From positions 1-43,094 of the forward strand of contig SKNO01000184.1 of NCBI GenBank assembly GCA_007120465.1: DNA of 43,094 nt, written 5' to 3'. Both the position numbers and the translations under genes were made by a program. The DNA comes from Nitriliruptoraceae bacterium. Its GTDB lineage: Bacteria; Actinomycetota; Nitriliruptoria; Nitriliruptorales; Nitriliruptoraceae. The notes under the pieces were generated by a model, which did no database searches, was not told where the DNA came from, and saw nothing but the letters and a program-made list of their open reading frames with translations. Each line of letters opens with the position of its first letter. The first letter of the stretch is position 1. Shown here in pieces: positions 2,267 to 42,333 of this stretch.

Positions 2267-3334
2267 ATGGCGGACACGGCGGCACAGCGACTGCGCTGGT
2301 CCACGCTGGAGGAGGAGCGCGAGCTCGCGCTGCCCGGGATGGGCGACCGCGTCACCCACCCCGGGTTCGCCGGGATCGAGTTCGTCCACGTCCGCGCCAA
2401 GAGCCTGCTCAACCACGTCCCCGCCGCCGCGGGCCTGCCCTTCGAGTGGACGATCAACGTCTACCGCGGCTGCACGCACGCGTGCCGCTACTGCTTCGCC
2501 CGACCGTCGCACACCTGGCTGGAACTCGACGCCGGCCGCGACTTCGAGTCGGTGATCGTCGTCAAGGTCAACGCCGTCGAGCGGCTGCGGGCCGAGCTGC
2601 GCTCACCGCGCTGGCGTGGCGAGCACGTCGCGCTCGGCACCAACACCGATCCCTACCAGCGGTGCGAGGGCCGCTACCGGCTCACCCGCGGCGTCGTCGC
2701 CACCCTCGCGGAGGCGGGCAACCCGTTCTCGGTGCTGACCAAGGGCACGCTGGTCGCCCGGGACCTCGACCTCTACGTCGAGGCAGCCCGTCGCGGGGTG
2801 TGCACCGGCGTGTCGATGTCGATCCCGACGGTGGACGAGCAGGTGTGGCGCACGACCGAGCCGGGCACCCCGCACCCTCGGGCCCGGCTCGAGACGATCG
2901 CTCGGCTGGCCGAGGCCGGGATCCCGACGGGGGTGATGATCGCGCCGATCATCCCGGGCATGTCCGACGCGCCCGACCAGCTCGATGCCGTCGTGGGTGC
3001 GGCGGTCGAGGCTGGTGCCGGCTCGATCACCCCGATCGTCCTGCACCTGCGTCCGGGGGTGCGCGAGGTGTTCGAGCCGTGGCTCGCGGACGTGCGCCCC
3101 GACCTCCTCGAGCGTTACCGGCACCTGTACCGGGGCACCTACGCGCCGGAGGCTGAACGCCGGCGGATCAGCCAGCAGGTGCACGACCTGGTGGCCGCCT
3201 ACGGAGGGACGCGGCGTCCACCGCAACGACGTGGGCCGCTCCGGCGCTCACCCGCGCCACCGCCCGCGCACCACCCGGACCGGGGCGATCACGTGCGGGA
3301 CGAGGTGATCGGGGAGCAGCTCACCCTGCTGTGA
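2267..3334 (+). CDS. Rv2578c-type radical SAM protein (spore-photoproduct-lyase-like)
   Basis: NVYRGCTHACRYCFAR cluster motif, GTNTDPYQRCEGRYRLTRGV and ITPIVLHLRPGVRE. ORF starts upstream; ATG 2267 chosen. Confidence 0.88.
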   Translation: MADTAAQRLRWSTLEEERELALPGMGDRVTHPGFAGIEFVHVRAKSLLNHVPAAAGLPFEWTINVYRGCTHACRYCFARPSHTWLELDAGRDFESVIVVKVNAVERLRAELRSPRWRGEHVALGTNTDPYQRCEGRYRLTRGVVATLAEAGNPFSVLTKGTLVARDLDLYVEAARRGVCTGVSMSIPTVDEQVWRTTEPGTPHPRARLETIARLAEAGIPTGVMIAPIIPGMSDAPDQLDAVVGAAVEAGAGSITPIVLHLRPGVREVFEPWLADVRPDLLERYRHLYRGTYAPEAERRRISQQVHDLVAAYGGTRRPPQRRGPLRRSPAPPPAHHPDRGDHVRDEVIGEQLTLL

Positions 3335-21691: not shown

Positions 21692-22003
21692 TCACGCGTC
21701 AGGTCGGGGGACACCGCTCTCCTCGACGAGGTGCTCACGGGTGACCTCGAGGAGCTGGCGGACGTGGGGGTCGTCGAGGTGGTAGAGGATCGCGCGGCCC
21801 TCCCGGCGCGCGGCCACCACCTTGGAGGTGCGCAGCAGCCGGAGTGCGTGCGACACGGCGGACTCGCTCACGCCGATCCCCGCGGCGAGCGAGCCCACCC
21901 GCTGCTCGCCGTCGTCAAGCAGGGTGTACAGCAGCCGTACCCGGGTCGGGTCCCCCAGGATCGCGAACATCTCGGCGGTCGCGTGCACCAGTCGATCGTC
22001 CAT
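21692..22003 (-). CDS. ArsR/SmtB family metalloregulator
   Basis: AEMFAILGDPTRVRLLYTLLDDGEQRVGSLAAGIGVSESAVSHALRLLRTSKVVAARREGRAILYHLDDPHVRQLL. Confidence 0.92.
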   Translation of the reverse strand: MDDRLVHATAEMFAILGDPTRVRLLYTLLDDGEQRVGSLAAGIGVSESAVSHALRLLRTSKVVAARREGRAILYHLDDPHVRQLLEVTREHLVEESGVPRPDA

Positions 22004-22011
22004 CGGTGGCC

Positions 22012-22938
22012 TCACCACGTCAGCTCGCGGCAGGGGGTCTCGGCGTCCGCCGGCTCGACCTGCAGGGTCGCGTGGTCCACGTCGTGCTCCTGGGCGAGCA
22101 GCCGGCGCGCGGCCCTCAGCACCACCGCGGCGTCCGCGCCGCCCTCCAGGTCGAGGTGGGCCGAGACGACCTCCATCCCGGACGTGAGGGTCCACACGTG
22201 CAGTTCGTGGACCGCGGCGACACCGGGCAGGGCGGCGAGGTCGGCCTCCAGCCTGTCCGGGGGCAGCTCCTTCGGCGCGGCCTGGAGCAGGATCCGCAGC
22301 GCCTTCGCGCCCAGCCGCAGCGCCCGGGGGAGGATCCACAGCGCGATGCCGATCGCGACGATCGGGTCGACGTAGGGCCAGCCGGTGGCCAGCAGGACGA
22401 TCGCGGCGAGCAGCACACCGACGGAGCTGACCAGGTCGGCGAGGACCTCGAGGAAAGCCCCCTCGAGGTTGAGGCTCTCCTTCGCCCCTGCGCGCAGCAG
22501 CCGCAGCACCACGAGATTGAGGGCGATCGCGCCGAGGGCGACGACCAGCATGGGTGCACCCGCCACGTCCGGCGGGTCACGGAGGCGCTGCACCGCCTCG
22601 GACAGGATGAAGCCGGCCAGGCCGACCAGCAGCACCGCGTTGGCGAGGGCCGCCAGGACCTCCAGCCGGTACAGCCCGAAGGTCCGGCGGGGATGGTGGC
22701 GTGCCCGGGCGGCAGCCTCGATCGCGCCGAGCGCCAGCCCGAGGCCGACCACGTCGGTGAGCAGGTGCCCGGCGTCACCGAGCAGCGCGAGGGACCCGGT
22801 CAGCAGTGCCGCGGTGACCTCGACGGCGAGGAAGCCCACGACCAGCGCGAGCGCCCACCGCAGCCGGGTGCGGTGGCGCCCACCGGCGGAGTTGCCGTCG
22901 GGCTGCAACGAGGCGCTCCCGGACACCTGCATCAGCAC
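22012..22938 (-). CDS. Cation diffusion facilitator (CzcD-like) efflux transporter
   Basis: SLALLGDAGHLLTDVVGLGLAL (HxxxD), YRLEVLAALANAVLL, AVHELHVWTLTSGMEVVSAHL. GTG 22938 or ATG 22932 start. Confidence 0.92.
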   Translation of the reverse strand: MLMQVSGSASLQPDGNSAGGRHRTRLRWALALVVGFLAVEVTAALLTGSLALLGDAGHLLTDVVGLGLALGAIEAAARARHHPRRTFGLYRLEVLAALANAVLLVGLAGFILSEAVQRLRDPPDVAGAPMLVVALGAIALNLVVLRLLRAGAKESLNLEGAFLEVLADLVSSVGVLLAAIVLLATGWPYVDPIVAIGIALWILPRALRLGAKALRILLQAAPKELPPDRLEADLAALPGVAAVHELHVWTLTSGMEVVSAHLDLEGGADAAVVLRAARRLLAQEHDVDHATLQVEPADAETPCRELTW

Positions 22939-22962
22939 ACCTGGATCAAGACACCTGCATCA
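22923..22962. repeat. Three copies of ACACCTGSATCA at 14-bp period across the CDF start region
   Basis: 22923-22934 ACACCTGCATCA, 22937-22948 ACACCTGGATCA, 22951-22962 ACACCTGCATCA. Confidence 0.9.
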
Positions 22963-22984
22963 TGTGAGCATCTGTTCAGATATT
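22963..22984. promoter_or_regulatory. Candidate SmtB/ArsR-type operator TGTGAGCA-TC-TGTTCAGATATT
   Basis: TGAGCA-N2-TGTTCA imperfect dyad followed by GATATT, just upstream of the CDF/ArsR operon. Confidence 0.65.
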
Positions 22985-23250
22985 ACGTCATGATGGCCGC
23001 GGACCGCAACCGGCCGGTGACGGCACCCAGCCGGCCTCTCGCCACAGCGCGAGGCCGGCGCCCTGGTCCACCTCCGGACCCTCCATCACGCCGACGGGCA
23101 GCCCCAGCCGTGCCGTCCCGTCGAGGAACCACTCGTCGACGCGCAACGGTCGCGAGCCAGAGGTCCCCGGATGGCGTGCACAGGTCCCACTCGGCCGCGC
23201 GACCCGGGAGGGGTTGCCGTCCGGGGCGGTCGTCGGCGAGTCTCACGGGT

Positions 23251-24072
23251 ATGACCGTGCTGTTCCGCATCGCGCGCAACCCCGACCCGGACTCGAAGCT
23301 GCCCTACCTGCTGTGGGTACCGGTGTCGGGTGGCCCGTTGGTGCTCAAGGCGCGGGAGACCTGGCCGCGGACCGCGAAGGTGTACTGCCACCGTGCCGAC
23401 GGCTGGCCCGATGACGACGAGGTGGAGATCGTCGAGGAGGTGGCGGTCCGCGAGTGTGCGTGGCGCGGCCGGGCGATCGACCTGGTGCTGGACCGCTACC
23501 GGGAGAACCGGGCGCAGTTCGTGTTCACCCGGCTGAAGGGCGGCCGCGAGGGGATCTTCTGGCAGACCTCCCGCACGGTCGGTGGCGTCCGGCCCGGGCT
23601 GCGGGTGCCGACGCGGCGCGCGTCGGGCGCCGAGGTGCTGACCGTGCTGAAGGACAGCCGCGAACGCTACGGCTACCGGTTCGCCACCCAGCAGGCGGTC
23701 GTCGACACCCAGCCGCTGCCCGTCGGCGACTACGGCATCGCGATCGGCGGCGAGGTGGTGGCCTGCGTGGAGCGCAAGTCGCTGGACGACTTCGCGACCA
23801 GTGCGGTCGACGCGTCGTTGTCGTTCCTGCTCGCGGAGCTCGCCTCGCTGGCGCGGGCGGCGGTGGTGGTGGAGGGGCACTACGCGGACCTGTTCACCCG
23901 CGAGCACGTCCAGGCCGGGTTCCTCGCCGACCTGGTCGCGCAGCTGCAGGTCCGCTACCCGAACGTGCCGATCGTGTTCTGCGGGGAGCGCAAGCTCGCG
24001 GAGGAGTGGACGTTCCGCTTCCTCGGCGCGGCCCGCGCCGAACTCACCGGTGATGCCGCCTCGGACGGGTGA
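23251..24072 (+). CDS. ERCC4 (XPF-type) nuclease-domain protein
   Basis: VGDYGIAIGGEVVACVERKSLDDFATS: GD-X(n)-ERKxxxD nuclease signature; ends FRFLGAARAEL. Confidence 0.8.
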   Translation: MTVLFRIARNPDPDSKLPYLLWVPVSGGPLVLKARETWPRTAKVYCHRADGWPDDDEVEIVEEVAVRECAWRGRAIDLVLDRYRENRAQFVFTRLKGGREGIFWQTSRTVGGVRPGLRVPTRRASGAEVLTVLKDSRERYGYRFATQQAVVDTQPLPVGDYGIAIGGEVVACVERKSLDDFATSAVDASLSFLLAELASLARAAVVVEGHYADLFTREHVQAGFLADLVAQLQVRYPNVPIVFCGERKLAEEWTFRFLGAARAELTGDAASDG

Positions 24073-29099: not shown

Positions 29100-32090
29100 T
29101 CACTCGGGGGTGGCGGTGCCCGTCGCGAGCGTGACGACCTCGTCGAGGGTCAGCCTCGTCCCCGCGGCGTGGTGCGTGGCGAAGGCCTCCCGGCCGAGGG
29201 CGTGCTCGAGCCTGGCGCGCAACTCGGAGAGGTCGGTGAACACACGCCAGCGGTGCGTCGGCGGCCGCGCGTCCGCGGCCCCCAGCAGCATGGCGGCCGC
29301 TTCCGGGTGCTGCGTCGCCGACAGCTCGGCCAGTACCTGTGCCGCACCGCGCAGTGGCCCCGGCCACGCGCACTCGCCGATCAGCCTGACCGCCTCGACG
29401 GCGGCTGGCCGGGCGTCGCCGGGTCGATCGGCGAGGAGCGCGATCTTCGCCGTGGCGACCAGCGCGAGGATCAGCCGGTTGCCCCGCCCGAACGCCCGCC
29501 AGGCGTCGAGCCGCTGGTGGGCCTGCGAGAGCGCGACCTCCGACTCTCCACCCAGTGCGGTCAGGACCACCTCGCTGAAACCGACCCGGGCGGACAGCTC
29601 CCGCATCCCGTGCGCCTCGGCCAGTTCCCGGGCGCGGCTCAGGGCCGCCCCCGCGGCCACGAGGGCATCGTCGTCGGGACCTCCCGCGGCGAGCGAGGCG
29701 GCCACGATCAGCTCGGTCTGCTCGGCTCGGACGTTGGCCTCGACGATCTCCAGCCCGTGGCGGGCCGCCTCGTCCGCGGTGTGCTCGATCTCCCGCAGCG
29801 AAGCCTCGAACTCGCCCATCTCGCCGAGCGTGGCAGCACGCCAGTAGCCCGTCCAGAGGGTGCCCTCGACGCTGCCGACCGCCTCGAACCGCTCGCGTGC
29901 TTCGGACAGCACCTCGAGGGTGCCGTCGAAGCGCTGATCGATGCCCGCCACCGCTCCGGCCATCAAGAGGCCCTGCGCCATGACCCGGTCGTCGACGTCG
30001 ACCTCACGAGCCAGCGCGACGGCCTCGCGGAGCCACTCACGCAGGCGATGGAACCGCCCGATGATGATCGGCGCCCAGCCCGAGCCGGCCGCGATCCGCA
30101 GCGCGGTCTGCGCATCCCGCCGCCGGATCGCCGCGGCGAAGGCGCCCTGCACGTGCAGGAACTCGCCGTCGAGGAGGGCGTACCAGGTCGGGGTGTCGAG
30201 CTGCGCGTTGGCCCCGACGGCTTCGACCAGGCGAGCCACCCACCCGCCGTAGCGCTGGGTCGTCTCCTCGGCGTCGTCGCCGAGCCGGTCGCGTCCGTAC
30301 TCGCGGACGGTCTCCAGCAACCGGTAGCGGGTGTGGCCGTCCACCTCGTGTGCCTCGATGAGCGAGTGGTCCACCAGGTCGGCGAGCAGGCCCGGCACCC
30401 CTCGCCGGTCGAGCGGTGGCCACCCGCAGACCTCCGCGGCGGCGTTCGCATCGACGTCGGCGACGAAGGTGGACAGCCGGCACAGCAGCCGCTGCTGCTC
30501 GGCGGTCAGCAGGTCGTAGCTCCAGTCGGTCGTGGCGAGCAGCGTGCGGTGGCGAGGCAGCGCCGTCCGGTTCCCGGAGGTCAGCAGCTGGAACCGGTCG
30601 TCGAGGCCGGTGGCCAGATCGGATGCCGACATCGTGGCGATGCGCACCGCGGCGAGCTCGATGGCGAGCGGGATGCCGTCGAGCCGTCGGCAGATCTGGT
30701 GGATGGCCGGGGCGGTCGACGCATCGAGGTCGAAGTCGGGCTGGGCGTCCGTGGCGCGATCCACGAAGAGGGCGCCGGATTCGCTCGCCGCGACGGCCTC
30801 CACCTCAGGGCCGTGCGGCACGCTCAGGGCAGGTACCCGCCACCGCTGCTCCCCGGGACAGCGTAGGGGTTGGCGGCTCGTCGCCAGCACGTGCAGTCGC
30901 GGGCAGGCCGTCAACAGCCGGTCGACCAGCCCGGCGACGGCGTCGGCCAGGTGCTCGCAGTTGTCGAGCACCAGAAGCAGGTGGCGATCGGCGATCCAGC
31001 CGCGCAGGGTGTCGTCCGGAGACCGGTCCATCTGATCGATGAGTCCGAGCTCGGTGAGGCAGTGCCCGGCGAGGTGGTCGGGATCGTCCAGCGGCCCGAG
31101 CGCCACCAGCCACGTGCTCTCGAAACCGGTGGCGGCCTTGCCAGCGGCACGCAGCGCCAGGCGCGTCTTGCCGGCACCGCCGGCGCCGACCAGCGTGGTG
31201 AGGCGGTGGCGGCGGACCATCGCCGCGACCGCACGGATCTCGTTCTCGCGTCCGACGAAGCTCGACCGCGGTGGTGGCAGGTTCCCGCCCCCGTGCTGGG
31301 TGCTCGACGGCGACCCTGCTGACCCGGGGGTCGTCGTGACGGCGAGGGCCGGATCGTGCCGCACGACCTGCTCGTGCAGCCGGACGATCGAGGGGCCGGG
31401 ATCGGTGCCGAGCTCCTCGGCGAGGCGGCGCCGCAGCTCGGCGTGGACGTGGAGCGCCTCGGCCTGCTGGCCGCTGCGGTACAGCGCGAGCATGAGCAGT
31501 TCCGCCACCGACTCGTCGAGGGGATGTTCGCCGGCGAGGGCACGCAGCTCGGCCTTCGCCTCGCGGTGACGGCCACGTGCCAGTTCCCCCGCCAGGCAGC
31601 GCGACAGGGCCGAGGCCCTGAGCTGCTCGAGCCGCGCGGCCTCGGTGGCCACGAAGGGCCGGTCGATCCCCGCGTACGGCGCGCCCCGCCACAGTGCGAG
31701 TGCGTCGCGCAACGGGCCGACCGAATCGGCGGGCGGCAGTTCGGACGCGGCCCGGACCGCTGCCTCGAACCGGCTGGCGTCGACGGCATCGGGTCCTGCC
31801 GCAAGCGTGTAGCCCGACGGGTGGGTGACCACCACCTGCCAGTCGCCCCCGCGGTCGGGTTCGAGCGTCCGGCGGAGCTGCGAGACATGGGTCTGCAAGA
31901 CCTTGACCGCCGAGGCCGGAGGCGCGTCGCCCCAGAGCCCATCGACGATCCGGTCGATGGTGACGATGCGTCCGGCGTTGGCCGCCAGGAGTGCCAGCAG
32001 CGCCCGACGCCCAGGGCCCGTGACGCTGATCGGCTGGCCGTCGCGCGCGACGGTCAGCTCACCGAGAACGCCGATGTCGAGGGTACTCAC
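29100..32090 (-). CDS. AfsR/SARP family transcriptional regulator (BTAD + NB-ARC-type ATPase)
   Basis: IGVLGELTVARDGQPISVTGPGRRALLALLAANAGRIVTIDRIVDGLWGD, VKVLQTHVSQLRRTLEP, TLVGAGGAGKTRLALRAAGKA, LLVLDNCEHL. GTG start inferred. Confidence 0.93.
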   Translation of the reverse strand: MSTLDIGVLGELTVARDGQPISVTGPGRRALLALLAANAGRIVTIDRIVDGLWGDAPPASAVKVLQTHVSQLRRTLEPDRGGDWQVVVTHPSGYTLAAGPDAVDASRFEAAVRAASELPPADSVGPLRDALALWRGAPYAGIDRPFVATEAARLEQLRASALSRCLAGELARGRHREAKAELRALAGEHPLDESVAELLMLALYRSGQQAEALHVHAELRRRLAEELGTDPGPSIVRLHEQVVRHDPALAVTTTPGSAGSPSSTQHGGGNLPPPRSSFVGRENEIRAVAAMVRRHRLTTLVGAGGAGKTRLALRAAGKAATGFESTWLVALGPLDDPDHLAGHCLTELGLIDQMDRSPDDTLRGWIADRHLLLVLDNCEHLADAVAGLVDRLLTACPRLHVLATSRQPLRCPGEQRWRVPALSVPHGPEVEAVAASESGALFVDRATDAQPDFDLDASTAPAIHQICRRLDGIPLAIELAAVRIATMSASDLATGLDDRFQLLTSGNRTALPRHRTLLATTDWSYDLLTAEQQRLLCRLSTFVADVDANAAAEVCGWPPLDRRGVPGLLADLVDHSLIEAHEVDGHTRYRLLETVREYGRDRLGDDAEETTQRYGGWVARLVEAVGANAQLDTPTWYALLDGEFLHVQGAFAAAIRRRDAQTALRIAAGSGWAPIIIGRFHRLREWLREAVALAREVDVDDRVMAQGLLMAGAVAGIDQRFDGTLEVLSEARERFEAVGSVEGTLWTGYWRAATLGEMGEFEASLREIEHTADEAARHGLEIVEANVRAEQTELIVAASLAAGGPDDDALVAAGAALSRARELAEAHGMRELSARVGFSEVVLTALGGESEVALSQAHQRLDAWRAFGRGNRLILALVATAKIALLADRPGDARPAAVEAVRLIGECAWPGPLRGAAQVLAELSATQHPEAAAMLLGAADARPPTHRWRVFTDLSELRARLEHALGREAFATHHAAGTRLTLDEVVTLATGTATPE

Positions 32091-32136
32091 CTCGCCCCTC
32101 GTCTCCTGGGCTCCACCTCGCCCGAGTGTACGAGCG

Positions 32137-32165
32137 TCGACCCGGCGTTGACCGCGCATCGACCA
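32137..32165 (+). promoter_or_regulatory. Candidate SARP boxes: TCGACCC, TTGACCG, TCGACCA at 11-bp period
   Basis: Heptamers start at 32137, 32148 and 32159, in the SARP/methyltransferase divergent intergenic region. Confidence 0.65.
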
Positions 32166-33351: not shown

Positions 33352-33933
33352 ATGCAGGCGAACACGCCCACGACACCTACCACCCGCATCACGCGCACCG
33401 TTGCCGCTGTGGGCCTGCTGGCCCTCGCAGCCGGCGCGCTGCTCGCCCTGACGACCGGCCCGTCGGGCGCCGACGAGCCGCCGATCACCGCAGAACCCTT
33501 GACGCAACGGCACACGTTCCCCGACGACGTCGCCGTCCAGGTCAGGGACAGGCCCGACCACCGGTCGACGGAGGTCATCAACCTCCGCGACGCCTCGCAC
33601 ATCGCCGTCGTGGAGATCACGATCCAGCCCGGCGCGGCGTTCCCCTGGCACACCCATCCCGGGCCGGTGCTGGCGGCGGTCGCCGAGGGCGATGAGGACG
33701 GCGCGTTCATCTACATCTACGCTGACGACTGCGTGGAGCGCCCCTACGAGGTCGGCGAAGCGTTCGTCGATCCGGGCGGCGACAACGTCCACATGGCCTA
33801 CAACCCGAGCGACACGGAGGAGACCGTCGTCATCGCGACCTTCCTCGGGGTGCCGCCCGAAGGTGGCCTGACCCTGCCGGTGGACGCGGAGCAGGGGGCC
33901 GCACTCGACGAACGGTGCGGCATCGAGCGCTGA
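33352..33933 (+). CDS. Exported cupin-domain protein
   Basis: N-terminal hydrophobic signal (VGLLALAAGALLALTTGPSGADE), then ITIQPGAAFPWHTHPGPVLAAVAEG…; strong SD GAGGAAGGAG. Confidence 0.82.
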   Translation: MQANTPTTPTTRITRTVAAVGLLALAAGALLALTTGPSGADEPPITAEPLTQRHTFPDDVAVQVRDRPDHRSTEVINLRDASHIAVVEITIQPGAAFPWHTHPGPVLAAVAEGDEDGAFIYIYADDCVERPYEVGEAFVDPGGDNVHMAYNPSDTEETVVIATFLGVPPEGGLTLPVDAEQGAALDERCGIER

Positions 33934-33944
33934 CCGTGCCTCGG

Positions 33945-35303
33945 ATGCGCGCAACCACCGAACCGGGCTCAGACGCCCCGGCGGGGACCGGCCATGCCGT
34001 CGTCATGGGCGCCGGCATGGCCGGTCTCGCCGTCGCAAAGGCGTTGACCGCAGGGTTCGAGCGGGTCACGATCGTCGACCGTGACCGGCTCCCCGTCGGA
34101 ACCGACCACCGCCCGGGCGTACCCCAGGACCGGCACCTGCACCTGCTGCTGCCGTCGGGGGTGGAGGCGCTCGAGACGCTGTTCCCGGGCCTGCTGGAGG
34201 AGCTGTGTGCCGGCGGTGCGACGGCCGGCGACACCGACCGCATCCGGATGTGCCTCAACGGGCACCGCCTTGCGCCGGCGCACACCGGTCACCGCGTGGT
34301 CTTCGCCAGCCGTCCCTTCGTGGAGGCACACGTGCGCCGGCGCGTGTGCGAGGAGCGCCGCATCTCGGTGCGTGACAACGTGCGCATCGTCGGTCTCGCC
34401 GTCAGTGACGACCGTGGTCGGGTCGAGGGGGTCGAGCTCGCCGCTTCGAACGGGGGCGATCCCGAGGTGTTGCCGGCCGAGGTCGTCGTGGACTGCACCG
34501 GACGCCGGTCACCCGTGCCGAGCTGGCTGGCGGAGCTGCGCCACCGTCCGCCCGAGGTCGAGGAGCTCGACGTCCAGGTGCGCTACGCCACCCGCCGCTA
34601 CGAGCTCCCCGACGGGGTCCTGGACGGTGACCACCACGTGCTGGTCGGACCGACCCCCGCCGGGCCACGTGGCGGGGCCATGACCTACGTGGAGGATGGC
34701 ACCTGGCTCGTGACGCTGTTCGCGATGGCCGGCGATCGGGCACCGGCCGACGGCGCCAGCTTCGAACGCTTCGCCGAGGAGTTGCCGATCCCGGACATCC
34801 ATGAGGCGATCGGTGCCGGCCGGGCGATCGATGATCCGGCCCCGTACCGGTTCCCGGCCAACCGGCGACTCCGGTACGAACGACTCGACGATCTCCCGGG
34901 CGGCCTGCTGGTCGCCGGCGACGCGGTGTGCTCGTTCAACCCGATCTACGGTCAGGGCATGTCCGTCGCGGCGATGGAGGCACAGCTCCTCCAGGCGCGT
35001 CTTCGTGCCGGGACCTGTCCGTCAGCACGCGCCTGGTTCCGGGACGTCGCCACGGTGATCGACACGGCCTGGCAGCTCGCCATCGGATCCGACCTGGCGG
35101 TGGAGGCCGTCGAGGGCCGCCGCCCCCTCTCCACCCGGATACTCAACCGCTACCTCGCACGGCTCCAGGCCGCGGCGACCGACGATCCACGACTGACGTC
35201 TCGGCTCACCCGTGTGGTCGGACTCGTCGACCCACCGAGCCGCCTCCTGTGGCCAACGACGGTCGCGTCCGTGGTGCGTGGTGCGCCTCGGTCCGGCACC
35301 TGA
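33945..35303 (+). CDS. FAD-dependent monooxygenase/epoxidase-like protein
   Basis: HAVVMGAGMAGLAVAKALTAGFERVTIVDRD, PQDRHLHLLLPSGVEALE, GGLLVAGDAVCSFNPIYGQGMSVAAMEAQLL. Confidence 0.87.
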   Translation: MRATTEPGSDAPAGTGHAVVMGAGMAGLAVAKALTAGFERVTIVDRDRLPVGTDHRPGVPQDRHLHLLLPSGVEALETLFPGLLEELCAGGATAGDTDRIRMCLNGHRLAPAHTGHRVVFASRPFVEAHVRRRVCEERRISVRDNVRIVGLAVSDDRGRVEGVELAASNGGDPEVLPAEVVVDCTGRRSPVPSWLAELRHRPPEVEELDVQVRYATRRYELPDGVLDGDHHVLVGPTPAGPRGGAMTYVEDGTWLVTLFAMAGDRAPADGASFERFAEELPIPDIHEAIGAGRAIDDPAPYRFPANRRLRYERLDDLPGGLLVAGDAVCSFNPIYGQGMSVAAMEAQLLQARLRAGTCPSARAWFRDVATVIDTAWQLAIGSDLAVEAVEGRRPLSTRILNRYLARLQAAATDDPRLTSRLTRVVGLVDPPSRLLWPTTVASVVRGAPRSGT

Positions 35304-36983: not shown

Positions 36984-37370
36984 TCACCCGGCGAGGAAGC
37001 GGGCGAAGCCGCCTCCGGGCGTGCCGACCGTCACGGGGATGTGTGGTGCGAACCCACGGATCTGCTCGAGCACGGAGGGGTCGGGCTCGCCGTACACCTG
37101 CGACCGGGTCGTCGAGAAGTCGAGGAAGTCCGCGGCCGCTGACGCGTGGTCGGCGAGCAGCCCCATGTGGAACGCCATCGACTCCGGATCGGGGTGGACC
37201 TGCACGATCGTCTGCTCGGTGCCCTCCTCGTTGACGTAGGTCCCGAAGTGGAGCAGCCGCGGCTCATTCGCCTCGATGAACTCGGCGAACTCGGCGAAGT
37301 ACTTCATCCAGGCCTCGAGCTGCCCCTCCTTGATCCCGGTGGTGTTGAGGTAGATGAACGGTGCATCCAT
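36984..37370 (-). CDS. Hypothetical protein, possibly dimeric alpha/beta-barrel (ABM-like)
   Basis: MDAPFIYLNTTGIKEGQLEAWMKYFAEFAEFIEANEPRLLHFGTYVNEEGTEQTIVQVHPDPESM…. Confidence 0.65.
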   Translation of the reverse strand: MDAPFIYLNTTGIKEGQLEAWMKYFAEFAEFIEANEPRLLHFGTYVNEEGTEQTIVQVHPDPESMAFHMGLLADHASAAADFLDFSTTRSQVYGEPDPSVLEQIRGFAPHIPVTVGTPGGGFARFLAG

Positions 37371-37479
37371 CGCTCGCTCCTCTCGCTCTCTGACGGACGG
37401 TTCCACCCTGCGGGCCGGTCGCGGCCGCTCCAAGGACAAGATGTGAACCCCGAGGTCCACGACGGGCGTGCACGGTCTA

Positions 37480-37498
37480 GGTTCACGAACGGAACTAG
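37480..37498. promoter_or_regulatory. Candidate operator GGTTC-ACGAACG-GAACTAG between the ABM-like gene and the HxlR fusion
   Basis: GTTC/GAAC dyad (37481-84/37492-95), flanked by CTAG/CTAG; second GTGAACC copy at 37443-37449. Confidence 0.4.
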
Positions 37499-37531
37499 TC
37501 AGACGGCACCCGTGGACGAAAGGCTCCTGGC

Positions 37532-39661
37532 ATGCGCAACTACGGCCAGTTCTGCCCGATCGCGCGGGGCTCGGAGATCCTCGCGGAGCGCTGGACGCCC
37601 ATCATCCTGCGCAACCTCCTGCTGGGCTGCCGCACCTTCAACGACATCGCGGCTGGCGCGCCCGGACTGTCTCGCGCGCTGCTCACCCGCAGGCTCCGCG
37701 AGCTCGAGCGCGCCGGCGTCATCGTCATCTCTCCGAAGCCGGGCGGGCGCGGGTCGCTGTACGAGCCGACGCGCGCCGGGCGCGAGCTGTGGGCCGTGCT
37801 CGGCGCCATCGGCACGTGGGCCGAAGACTGGACCGACGTCACCCCCGAGCATGCCGATCCCGAGACCGTGCTGTGGTCGTGGTCCCAGGCGTACCTGCGG
37901 CACGACCTGTTGCCCACACGCCGGGTCGTGGTGCGGTTCGACTTCCAGCGCGATGACCGGCCCGAGCAACTGTGGCTGCACATCGAGCACGCAGGCGCCG
38001 AGATCTGCCGCTTCGACCCGGGGTTCGGCGACGATCTGACCGTGTCCATCGTTGATCCGGTCGTCTTCGCCCGGTGGCACCTCGGCTTGCTCGAGTGGGA
38101 GGTGGCCCTGCGCTCCGGTGGGCTGCAGATCAGCGGTCCCGCCGAGCTGCGGCGGGCGCTGCCGACCTGGAACGCGAGCCCGCAGCGGCATGCCCGCCAG
38201 CGGGACGAGGCACGCCGGATGCCGGGCGCACCCGACGAGCTGCCGCTCGAGGCCGTCCCCCGACCACCACCGCCAGCGAGCCGCGAGCAGCGGCAACCTT
38301 CCCGACCTGCGGCCATCCCGGGCTTCCAGGGCGCGGTGGTTGCCCCCGACGACCCCGGCTACGACCAGGCCCGCGCGGTCTGGAACGGCGGGATCGACCG
38401 TCGGCCACGCTACATCGCCCGGTGCCTGTCCACCGCCGACGTGACGGCCGCGCTGCGCTTCGCTCGTGACGGTGACCTGCCGATCAGCGTGCGTGCCGGC
38501 GGTCACGGCGTCGCCGGTGCGGCGGTATGCGACGATGGGCTGGTGATCGACCTCGCCGCGATGAAGCGGATCGCGGTGGATCCGGCCCGGAGGACCGCGA
38601 CGGTCCAGCCCGGTGTGCTGTGGGGGGAGCTCGACGCGGCAACCCAGGCCCTGGGCCTCGCGACGACGGGCGGCATCGTGTCGCACACGGGCGTCTCGGG
38701 GCTGACCCTCGGCGGGGGCATCGGGTGGCTCATGCGCCGACACGGGCTCGCCGTCGACAACCTGCTGGCGGCGGAGGTCGTCACGGCCGAGGGTGGCACC
38801 CTGACGGCCAGCGCCACCGAGGAAGCCGAGCTGTTCTGGGGGCTGCGCGGGGGTGGGGCCGGGCTCGGCGTGGTCACCTCCTTCACCTTCCGGCTCCACC
38901 CGATCGAGCGCGAGGTGCTCGCCGGGCCGGTGGTGTGGGCGCTCGAGGACGCGCGGGAGATCCTGACGGCCTACCGCGAGTTCGTCGCCACGGCCCCCCG
39001 CGAGGTCGCCACGATCGTGACGCTGCGCCGGGTCCCAGACGACCCGCACCTTCCGGTCGAGCTGCATGGCAGACTCGTCTGCATCGTGGGGATGCTGGCA
39101 CTGGCGCCACCGGGCACCGCCGAGCGGCTGCTGGCCCCGCTCCGCGAGTTCGGTCGTCCGCTGCTCGACCGCGTCCGGTACCGGCCCTACACCAACCTCC
39201 AGTCCAGCATCGACGCGACCGTGCCCCACGGCTGGCACTACTACTGGAAGGCGACCGGCGTCCCCACCCTGTCGGACGCAGCGATCGACGCGCTGGTCGA
39301 CCATCTGCCACGGGCCCACTCCCGGCGCAGCTTCGCGGTGATGTTCCACCTCGGCGGGCAGGTCGGCGACGTCGACCCGCGGTCCACCGCCTACACCCGC
39401 CGGCACTTGGCGCACGAGATCGTGGTCAACGCGGTCTGGTTGCCCGACGAGCCGCTCGCGGAGGACGAGCCCGCCTGGGCACGGGCATGCCTCGACGGTC
39501 TGGCTCCGCACGGACAGGGCGCCTACCTCAACTTCCTCGATCGCGACGACCAGGCGCGGACCCCAGACGCCTTCGACCCGATGGCCTACCAGCGCCTCAC
39601 GGATCTCCGCCGCCGCGTCGATCCGGCGGGAGTCCTCTCGCCCCACCAGGCAGCGGTGTGA
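37532..39661 (+). CDS. HxlR-family wHTH + SCP2-like domain fused to FAD-binding (PCMH/BBE) oxidase, 709 aa
   Basis: HxlR: CPIARGSEILAERWTPIILRNLLLGCRTFNDIAAGAPGLSRALLTRRLRELERAGVI; FAD oxidase from residue 262: IPGFQGAVVAPDDPGYDQARAVWNGGIDRRP…SVRAGGHGVAGAAVCDDGLVIDL…LGGGIGWLMRRHG. Confidence 0.92.
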   Translation: MRNYGQFCPIARGSEILAERWTPIILRNLLLGCRTFNDIAAGAPGLSRALLTRRLRELERAGVIVISPKPGGRGSLYEPTRAGRELWAVLGAIGTWAEDWTDVTPEHADPETVLWSWSQAYLRHDLLPTRRVVVRFDFQRDDRPEQLWLHIEHAGAEICRFDPGFGDDLTVSIVDPVVFARWHLGLLEWEVALRSGGLQISGPAELRRALPTWNASPQRHARQRDEARRMPGAPDELPLEAVPRPPPPASREQRQPSRPAAIPGFQGAVVAPDDPGYDQARAVWNGGIDRRPRYIARCLSTADVTAALRFARDGDLPISVRAGGHGVAGAAVCDDGLVIDLAAMKRIAVDPARRTATVQPGVLWGELDAATQALGLATTGGIVSHTGVSGLTLGGGIGWLMRRHGLAVDNLLAAEVVTAEGGTLTASATEEAELFWGLRGGGAGLGVVTSFTFRLHPIEREVLAGPVVWALEDAREILTAYREFVATAPREVATIVTLRRVPDDPHLPVELHGRLVCIVGMLALAPPGTAERLLAPLREFGRPLLDRVRYRPYTNLQSSIDATVPHGWHYYWKATGVPTLSDAAIDALVDHLPRAHSRRSFAVMFHLGGQVGDVDPRSTAYTRRHLAHEIVVNAVWLPDEPLAEDEPAWARACLDGLAPHGQGAYLNFLDRDDQARTPDAFDPMAYQRLTDLRRRVDPAGVLSPHQAAV

Positions 39662-40040
39662 CCCGGTGCGCGACGACGCCCGAGCCCTTCGGGCGGTGGT
39701 CAAGCCGGGATGGGTACGGCGGCAAGGTGTGATGGTGGGCTCCTCGATCCCGGGGCGCCGGGGGCGCATCGAACTGTCGGCCGTGTGCGTCGTGAACGCA
39801 CCGAGGCACCCTGTTGGTTGCCCGGGAGGCCCGTGTTGATCGCGTTGGGAAGAAGTCGCGCTGCGACCGCTCCAGACCGGCGGTTGCAGCTGCATCGCCG
39901 TGACGATGTGCGGAAGGGCTCAGCCGCCGATGCGCACATGGTTCGACGTGACCGGAGCCGCCGTCTCGGGAGGTGCAGCGGGGCGGCGGTCGCTGTGGAT
40001 CAGCGGCCGGCGCGTCGCCGCCGAGCGGTACGATCGCCCC

Positions 40041-40286
40041 ATGACCGATCACGCGCAGTCGCTGCTTCGCGAGGCTCTCTCGCTCTCCGAGGAAGAGCGT
40101 GCGGGCCTGATCGCCGAGCTGTTGGTAAGCCTTGAGGGACCTGCTGAGGACGACGAAGCGGCCGTCGAGCATGCGTGGGCGGAAGCGCTCGAGCGACGGG
40201 CACGACGGGTCTTGGCCGGCGAAGCGCCGGGGGAGGACTGGGGCCAGGTCCGTGGCCGTGTCGGGCGAGCGCTGACAGACGGGTGA
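40041..40286 (+). CDS. Addiction-module antitoxin (PF09720-like)
   Basis: EALSLSEEERAGLIAELLVSLEG…VEHAWAEALERRARRVLAGEAPGEDW. Confidence 0.85.
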   Translation: MTDHAQSLLREALSLSEEERAGLIAELLVSLEGPAEDDEAAVEHAWAEALERRARRVLAGEAPGEDWGQVRGRVGRALTDG

Positions 40287-40603
40287 GCCGACGGGTCCTC
40301 TTCGAGCCGGAGGCGTCGGCCGAGCTTGAGGAAGCCGCGATCTGGTACGAAGCTCAGCGATCCGGTCTGGGCCGGGCTTTCCTCACGGCAGTAGACCGGG
40401 CCATCGAGCACATTGCGGCCTGGCCGGACGCCCGACTCTCCGTTCCCGGCGTGCCGGCCAGCCTCTCGGTCCGCCAGTTCCCGGTCTCCCGCTTCCCATA
40501 CCGCATCGCGTACCTGGTCACATCCCAGGAGCTGCGGGTCCTCGCGGTGGCTCACGCCCGCCGACGTCCTGGCTACTGGCGATCGCGCACCGAACCGCGA
40601 TGA
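40283..40603 (+). CDS. ParE/RelE family toxin
   Basis: RVLFEPEASAELEEAAIWYEAQRSGLGRAFLTAVDRAIEHIAAWPDA…VRQFPVSRFPYRIAYLV; GTGA overlap with antitoxin. Confidence 0.87.
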   Translation: MSRRVLFEPEASAELEEAAIWYEAQRSGLGRAFLTAVDRAIEHIAAWPDARLSVPGVPASLSVRQFPVSRFPYRIAYLVTSQELRVLAVAHARRRPGYWRSRTEPR

Positions 40604-40670: not shown

Positions 40671-41033
40671 TCAGGGCTCGGGGCGGCGGACGCGCAGCTC
40701 ACCGTCGCGCCAGACCGCGATGCACCTTCGCAGGTCGTTGAGTTCGACGCTCGTAGCGATGCGTTCGGCGGTTTGTCGGATCGCGCGTGGGGGCTGATGG
40801 TCGAGGCGGATCACCAGCACTCCGGAGTGGGTGCCCGGCGGGTGGGCCCGGATGTCGCCCAGCCCACGGTCGAGTGTGACAAGCAGCCGATCGTGGGCCG
40901 TCGCACCGGCGAGTACCGCCGGGTCCTTCGCCCCTCGAAGGCCTTCGTCCCGGACCGTGTCCACCTCGTGGCCCATACCAGCCAACACGTCGATGGCCCA
41001 GTCCGGCAGGTTCTCGTCGAGCTTGATACTCAC
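40671..41033 (-). CDS. DUF5615 PIN-like toxin
   Basis: MSIKLDENLPDWAIDVLAGMGHEVDTVRDEGLRGAKDPAVLAGATAHDRLLVTLDRGLGD. Confidence 0.88.
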   Translation of the reverse strand: MSIKLDENLPDWAIDVLAGMGHEVDTVRDEGLRGAKDPAVLAGATAHDRLLVTLDRGLGDIRAHPPGTHSGVLVIRLDHQPPRAIRQTAERIATSVELNDLRRCIAVWRDGELRVRRPEP

Positions 41034-41266
41034 GTGGAGGCGACGGCGGGGTACTCGTCTCGTGCCAGCTCAGCGCCGTAGGCCGCGGCCGCCCGGATGC
41101 CTTCGACCGTCAGCGTCGCGTACTCCGCGAGGATCTCGTCTTCGGTCATCCCATCCGCCAGCGCGTCGAGGACGATGCTGACCAGGATGCGGGTGCCGCG
41201 CACGGTCGCCTGACCGTGGCACACCTGGGGGTCACGGACGATCAAGGCGCGTTGCTCGTCGGTCAT
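41030..41266 (-). CDS. DUF433 antitoxin
   Basis: LIVRDPQVCHGQATVRGTRILVSIVLDALADGMTEDEILAEYATLTVEGIRAAAAYGAELA; ATGA overlap with DUF5615 gene. Confidence 0.88.
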   Translation of the reverse strand: MTDEQRALIVRDPQVCHGQATVRGTRILVSIVLDALADGMTEDEILAEYATLTVEGIRAAAAYGAELARDEYPAVAST

Positions 41267-41427
41267 GGTCGTCGGCCTCGCTCGGGTGCCTCCGATCGTA
41301 CGCCGCTGACCGGTGGCCGTCCCCGCTGTCCACAAGAGGTCGCTTGCCGGTCGGAGGCCAGCTCGCTCTGGCGGGGCGAGCGCAGGCTGATGGTGGTGGC
41401 GTCATACCCCGCCGCCAGGGAGCCAGC

Positions 41428-42333
41428 ATGTCCACCGTCACGCTCGACCTTCCTTACCGCCAGGCCGGTACGGCCCAGTGGGCCGCCGTGGCGTTCGTAG
41501 CCGGCTACTCGTCCCCAGGAACCCGGCAGGCGTACGCGACCCAGCTGCGTCTGCGGTTCGACTGGTGCGCCCAGCACCAGCTCGAACCGTTGGCAGACGT
41601 CTGCCGCCCCCACGTGGAGCTCTACGCCCGCGACCTCGAAGCGCTTGGTCTCGCCCCGGCCACCGTTGCCCTCAGGCTGGTCGTGATCACCGGCTTCTAC
41701 CGCTACTGCGTCGAGGAACAGCTCCTCGAGCACTCCCCGGCGGTCCACGTTCGTCGTCCCAAGATCTCCCAGGAGTCCACCCGGCTTGCCCTCGACCGCG
41801 CAGAGCCCGGTGCGTTCCTCGTCCAGGCCGGGCTGTCCGGCGGCAACGACCACGCGCTGGCCTGCCTGCTCGCCCTCAACGCGCTCCGTGTCTCCGAAGC
41901 CTGTGGCGCGGACCTGAGCGATCTCGCGCTCGCGAACGGCCACCGCACCCTGCGCATCGTTGGCAAGGGCAACCAGCCAGCGCTGATCCCGCTCGCTCCG
42001 AGAACGATGCGGGCGATCGACAGCGCCGTCGGGGAACGCACCGACGGGCCGCTGCTTGCTCGCGATGATGGCAGCCGGTTGGATCGGCGCGCTGCTGGAC
42101 GGATCGTGCGTCGGCTCGCGAACCGTGCCGGGATCGACAAGGTGGTCTCCCCGCACTCGCTGCGGCACGCGGCGATCACCGCCGCCGGGTGCAGCCTGCG
42201 TGACGTCCAGGACCTCGCGCGCCACGCCGCCCCTCGCCAGACCCGCCGCTACGACCGGGCCCGCGGCGCGCTCGACCGAAACCCCACCGACATCGTCGCC
42301 ACTTACCTCGCCGGTGCAACTGGGGCCCGTTGA
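41428..42333 (+). CDS. Tyrosine-recombinase-family integrase
   Basis: ALRVSEACGADLSDL (catalytic R), SPHSLRHAAIT (HxxR), ARHAAPRQTRRYDR (H…Y). Confidence 0.9.
   Translation: MSTVTLDLPYRQAGTAQWAAVAFVAGYSSPGTRQAYATQLRLRFDWCAQHQLEPLADVCRPHVELYARDLEALGLAPATVALRLVVITGFYRYCVEEQLLEHSPAVHVRRPKISQESTRLALDRAEPGAFLVQAGLSGGNDHALACLLALNALRVSEACGADLSDLALANGHRTLRIVGKGNQPALIPLAPRTMRAIDSAVGERTDGPLLARDDGSRLDRRAAGRIVRRLANRAGIDKVVSPHSLRHAAITAAGCSLRDVQDLARHAAPRQTRRYDRARGALDRNPTDIVATYLAGATGAR

Follow-up and report, generated by a model that had tools for sequence, protein, structure and literature searches.

An HxlR-SCP2 regulator and an EncM-like FAD oxidase joined in one reading frame of a Nitriliruptoraceae bacterium

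The fusion gene, its recurrence, and its surroundings

The window analyzed here, a 43,094-nucleotide contig of a Nitriliruptoraceae bacterium (SKNO01000184.1, from assembly GCA_007120465.1), contains an open reading frame at 37532-39661 that starts with ATG and continues for 709 codons without interruption. The features of this gene and of the region upstream are as follows.

36984-37370 (-): divergent ABM-like (antibiotic biosynthesis monooxygenase-like) gene, about 128 aa; weak ABM match, E=0.043, under the cut-off
37432-37451 (unstranded): operator-like imperfect palindrome 1, AAGGACAAGATGTGAACCCC; best match in the window to a motif trained without the fusions
37477-37498 (unstranded): operator-like imperfect palindrome 2, CTAGGTTCACGAACGGAACTAG; second-best match in the window
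37518-37523 (+): GAAAGG, likely ribosome binding site of the fusion gene, 8 bases upstream of the ATG
37532-39661 (+): fusion gene, HxlR, SCP2-like, linker, and EncM-like FAD oxidase, 709 aa; from the ORF, Pfam, and homologous fusions
37532-37840 (+): HxlR/DUF24 winged-helix DNA-binding domain, residues 1-103; Pfam PF01638, matches to PA1607 and YodB
37553-37555 (+): Cys8 codon; invariant in 30 aligned HxlR-SCP2 proteins
37841-38179 (+): SCP2-fold domain, residues 104-216; AlphaFold2 model and Foldseek
38180-38314 (+): Pro/Arg-rich linker, residues 217-261; unfused HxlR proteins stop just before it, and selection on it is relaxed
38219-38221 (+): in-frame ATG in the linker, candidate internal start; preceded by GACGAGG
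38315-39658 (+): EncM-like FAD-dependent oxidase domain, residues 262-709; EncM match
38504-38506 (+): His325 codon; aligned with EncM His78 (covalent FAD)

The initial annotation described a single uninterrupted 709-aa frame with a linker at about residues 216-261, and both descriptions were borne out. The codon-position GC bias runs on through the linker, and the same layout was found in two other genomes. In a full-length structure model, both halves were predicted with confidence and residues 233-256 were disordered, and unfused HxlR proteins end at about residue 217. The annotation had also proposed that the ATG at 38219 could yield the oxidase by itself, in which case the gene would make both the fusion and a free enzyme. 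The in-frame ATG is present with GACGAGG upstream, but the linker of the homologue in WHSV01000101.1 (G095) has no in-frame start codon ahead of the oxidase fold. An internal start at 38219 thus appears poorly supported, and we consider a second product from this gene very improbable.

The fusion recurs in other genomes. WHSV01000101.1, from an independent Actinomycetota metagenome-assembled genome (MAG), encodes an intact three-part homologue with 60% identity over residues 1-705, and G058, a genome from the same class as the window, carries a fusion homologue at 66-77% identity with one frameshift near residue 385. This frameshift, at about position 2661 of locus L006, could be a sequencing error or recent decay; the rest of that gene is conserved. 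Fusions are rare, given that the window and G095 alone passed the full-length threshold among 397 sampled genomes of the phylum, and our surveys, which were not exhaustive, found three fusion genomes in total. Together these span two Actinomycetota classes. In codon comparison, dN/dS was about 0.16-0.37 across the HTH, SCP2, and oxidase parts, a sign of purifying selection, and selection on the linker was relaxed.

We considered that an assembly error or frameshift might have joined two genes, or that the gene might be a decaying pseudogene, given that the window comes from a MAG fragmented into 294 contigs and that the G058 copy is frameshifted. An artefact of sequencing or assembly was rejected, since the same fusion is present in an independent MAG and the unfused partners face opposite directions, a layout from which a missed stop cannot yield the fusion. 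Purifying selection on both halves also speaks against a pseudogene, and we regard this whole explanation as extremely unlikely. The expectation that the HxlR and oxidase families normally occur as separate proteins was confirmed by the homologue surveys. Literature searches for HxlR with SCP2, an HxlR-FAD fusion, and HxlR with berberine bridge found no relevant paper; the HxlR-SCP2-EncM-like combination appears not to have been described in the papers searched, whereas an enzyme joined to a regulator is already known as a kind.

Several other genes of the window were noted. Directly downstream of the fusion, 39900-40603 (+) encodes an Unstab_antitox-type antitoxin followed by a RelE/ParE-type toxin-like frame, a probable toxin-antitoxin pair. 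The DUF5615 and DUF433 genes at 40671-41335 (-), which overlap by 4 bases and lie beside a tyrosine recombinase (41344-42333, +), are probably another. A second flavoenzyme near the fusion, a FAD_binding_3-type monooxygenase-like protein, is encoded at 33915-35303 (+). Farther away are a 1019-aa SARP/LAL-like activator (29100-32159, -) with Trans_reg_C, BTAD, and a possible STAND NTPase part, and a 742-aa protein (21844-24072, +) whose only Pfam match is an ERCC4 nuclease domain at the C-terminus.

The regulator half, the oxidase half, and the upstream region

The HxlR-like character ascribed earlier to residues 1 to about 100 was confirmed by Pfam domain search, in which PF01638 matched residues 16-102 far over the cut-off (54.1 versus 20.8 bits), and a search against solved structures matched the N-terminal part to PA1607, YodB, and HypR. 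The HTH is the most conserved region in codon comparison (dN/dS about 0.16-0.29), suggesting that the DNA-binding half has been retained. An AlphaFold2 model of residues 1-262 reached a pLDDT of 88, with most of the SCP2 part at 90-98. When this predicted model was searched with Foldseek, domain one retrieved HxlR structures and domain two retrieved SCP2 structures (8af2, 3bdq, 2cx7, and 1c44; E about 1e-4 to 6e-4), so that the proposal of an SCP2-like domain at about residues 108-215 held at the level of the fold. Given that the fold match came without a Pfam match, the domain is a remote member of the family. SCP2 folds carry hydrophobic molecules, which suggests that a hydrophobic ligand could be common to the sensor and the oxidase.

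The N-terminal Cys-Pro is invariant, with Cys8 kept in 30/30 aligned HxlR-SCP2 proteins. By position, Cys8, a putative sensing residue here, matches the redox-sensing N-terminal Cys of YodB, HypR, CatR, and HxlR; in YodB, HypR, and CatR this residue senses quinones, HOCl, or diamide (PMC6943732). Formaldehyde-type sensing in Bacillus HxlR requires a Lys at Cys+2 (PMC7835342), and we rejected such sensing for the fusion because the Cys-x-Lys pair is missing, with Ile10 at Cys+2.

The upstream regions of the HxlR genes have in common an imperfect palindrome, roughly AG(G/T)TC-N8-GA(A/C)CT, that usually ends about 25-33 bases upstream of the start codon. Its log-likelihood was 119, compared to 36 +/- 3.4 in dinucleotide shuffles, a figure that kinship among the sequences inflates somewhat. 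A version of the motif trained on unfused genes alone, or with even the HxlR clade of the fusion left out, was run across the whole 43-kb window. Of about 43,075 positions, the two that ranked highest both lay within the 161-bp intergenic region that precedes the fusion. As a prediction on held-out sequence, this is the strongest sign that the HxlR half may still act at its own promoter. G058 has weaker motif sites. When only the fusion clade was used for training, at width 22, the motif failed to converge on the palindrome sites, and a sigma-70 consensus scan found no promoter.

The divergent ABM-like gene, which has homologues elsewhere at up to 48% identity, may be co-regulated with the fusion through their common 161-bp intergenic region. 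It was rejected as an obligate fusion partner, being absent beside the other fusions. Divergently upstream of the G095 fusion lie an alpha/beta hydrolase and then a methyltransferase, and upstream of the G058 fusion a methyltransferase and then an alpha/beta hydrolase. Such neighborhoods would be consistent with small operons that degrade or tailor an aromatic or polyketide-like compound. No polyketide synthase was recognized beside the fusion gene among the window proteins scanned.

For the C-terminal half, the initial annotation had proposed a PCMH/BBE flavoprotein at about residues 262-709. The fold superfamily was right, with FAD_binding_4 (PCMH) at residues 292-426 scoring 105.9 bits against a Pfam cut-off of 26.4, but the BBE match (PF08031, residues 664-706) fell under its cut-off (15.5 versus 20.6 bits) and the closest solved relative is EncM. 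In a search against solved PDB structures, this half matched EncM over its whole length (E=1.3e-97), and the modelled oxidase half superposed on EncM with a TM of 0.92 at 40% identity. The FAD-linking histidine is kept, as H325 aligns with EncM H78, the residue that carries covalent FAD in EncM; the oxygen-pocket residues of EncM are also listed (PMC7662398). Among their counterparts in the fusion, L116, H138, T139, and L144 are kept and L117 is replaced by Trp. We rejected the retention of T139 as proof of flavin-N5-oxide chemistry, given that distant oxidases keep T139 too and the residue therefore does not discriminate. From these residues, oxygenase and plain oxidase chemistry are both possible. 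Close EncM-like oxidases (52-53% identity) also occur at seven haloarchaeal loci (L038, L039, L048, L051, L053, L067, and L077) without a neighbor of the HxlR-SCP2 family, which suggests transfer of the oxidase alone to haloarchaea.

Unfused divergent pairs and the origin of the fusion

Among loci with 1 kb or more of sequence upstream, the HxlR-SCP2 gene adjoins an oxidase gene divergently in 34/76, and the divergent pair was found in 29/44 loci with close oxidases. The loci were fetched as relatives of the fusion protein, and these fractions describe that sample rather than all oxidases. No tandem HxlR-SCP2/oxidase pair was found among the unfused loci surveyed. Divergent pairs occur in Streptomyces, Nocardioides, Pseudonocardia, Kribbella, Lysobacter, a betaproteobacterium, and a planctomycete, and an annotated example is NOCA_RS01050/RS01045 on plasmid pNOCA01 of Nocardioides sp. 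JS614. The fusion therefore joins the regulator to a long-standing genomic partner.

Unfused HxlR proteins stop at about residue 217, exactly where the linker starts, and each half of the fusion corresponds to the full length of an unfused relative. Given that the partners are complete genes that diverge when unfused, the fusion joined two complete genes and needed the inversion of one of them. The oxidase tree places the three fusions together in a single clade (SH-aLRT 93), and its sister is a divergent-pair oxidase from the window's own family (SH-aLRT 98). In the HxlR tree, the HxlR halves of the fusions fall within one broader clade that includes unfused genes; a single origin of these halves was neither rejected (p-AU 0.148) nor shown. 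Among the unfused genes in this clade is an HxlR-SCP2 gene, 70% identical to the HxlR half of the window's fusion, that lies divergent to an alpha/beta hydrolase without an oxidase nearby (L019 in G091; 1474-2310, -, and 2335-3234, +). It could represent either the unfused ancestor type or a fusion after oxidase loss.

The two halves might also work independently, with the joining coupling their amounts and passing no signal between them. The linker is long, poorly conserved, and predicted to be disordered; each half retains the full length of its unfused relative; and unfused pairs are far commoner, all of which would be expected of such passive joining. On the other hand, making a regulator at enzyme amounts would be costly and odd, and the fusion has been kept in two classes, with conservation of both halves. 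We consider independence of the halves possible but doubtful.

Proposed working and closest known systems

The initial annotation had offered two explanations, a gene fusion or a DNA-bound flavoenzyme that senses or consumes its own ligand. Both are still good readings, and the second gained support from the divergent pairs and from the operator-like palindromes upstream. Our favored reading, which we hold to be fairly likely, is that of a single-chain self-regulating flavoenzyme in which an HxlR-SCP2 regulator has been joined to its normally divergent EncM-like oxidase neighbor. The HxlR part, as a dimer, would bind both palindromes in the 37432-37498 interval and repress its own gene together with the divergent ABM-like gene. 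The DNA would be released when the SCP2 pocket takes up a hydrophobic or aromatic (polyketide- or phenol-like) ligand or, alternatively, when a reactive oxidized product modifies Cys8. The C-terminal oxidase would then oxidize the ligand and end the signal. In this scheme we infer that the protein binds DNA and that it represses rather than activates, and the ligand and the reaction are likewise inferred.

A bolder form of the idea, which we advance only tentatively, is that the protein is a covalent-flavin oxidase that, through its catalysis or the state of its flavin, resets the DNA-bound regulator fused to it. This would be a one-protein sense-and-destroy loop that arose from a divergent pair by inversion and fusion and is found in at least two Actinomycetota classes.

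PutA and BirA are regulator-enzyme fusions that have DNA-binding and enzyme folds in one chain. The fusion resembles these proteins and MocR in this layout, and they are able to regulate their own pathways, an ability that operator-like sites predict for the fusion; their DNA-binding families and enzyme folds differ from those of the fusion. MocR proteins are described as GntR with an aminotransferase fold (PMC6677901). The best reading of these comparisons appears to be that the fusion is comparable in logic to PutA and built from different parts.

A closer parallel with PutA would be a switch in which the redox state or occupancy of the FAD directly controls DNA binding by the HxlR part, so that the protein is a regulator only without substrate. 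PutA, a flavoenzyme with a DNA-binding domain, has such logic, and the fusion retains the histidine for covalent FAD along with most residues of the EncM oxygen pocket. However, sensing sites are already available in the SCP2 domain and Cys8, both of which also occur in unfused regulators, so a flavin signal is not needed, and the flexible linker speaks against tight mechanical coupling. We therefore judge a direct flavin switch to be unlikely and retain the self-regulating flavoenzyme with sensing in its regulator half as our preferred reading.

The closest known systems each resemble a part of the fusion. EncM, the flavin-N5-oxide oxygenase of Streptomyces enterocin biosynthesis (PDB 3W8W/4XLO), matches the C-terminal part in fold over its full length and has the same FAD-linking His, L116, H138, T139, and L144; unlike the fusion, it has no DNA-binding or SCP2 part, and its L117 is Trp in the fusion. 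The HxlR/DUF24 (MarR-type) regulators YodB, HypR, QsrR, and PA1607 have the winged helix, the invariant N-terminal Cys-Pro, and palindromic upstream sites (predicted in the fusion), whereas they are about 100-170 aa long and lack an enzyme domain. The pNOCA01 pair belongs to the same two families at full length, with about 50-56% identity per half, and differs in being two genes that face apart rather than one gene encoding one protein.

In summary, the fusion is a Rosetta-stone case, indicating that the widespread and apparently unstudied HxlR-SCP2 regulators act with the EncM-like oxidases that adjoin them. It supplies a concrete operator motif and one polypeptide in which ligand sensing, flavin oxidation, and DNA binding could be measured side by side. 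If the proposed working is true, a flavin oxidase would join the small number of enzymes known to control their own genes.
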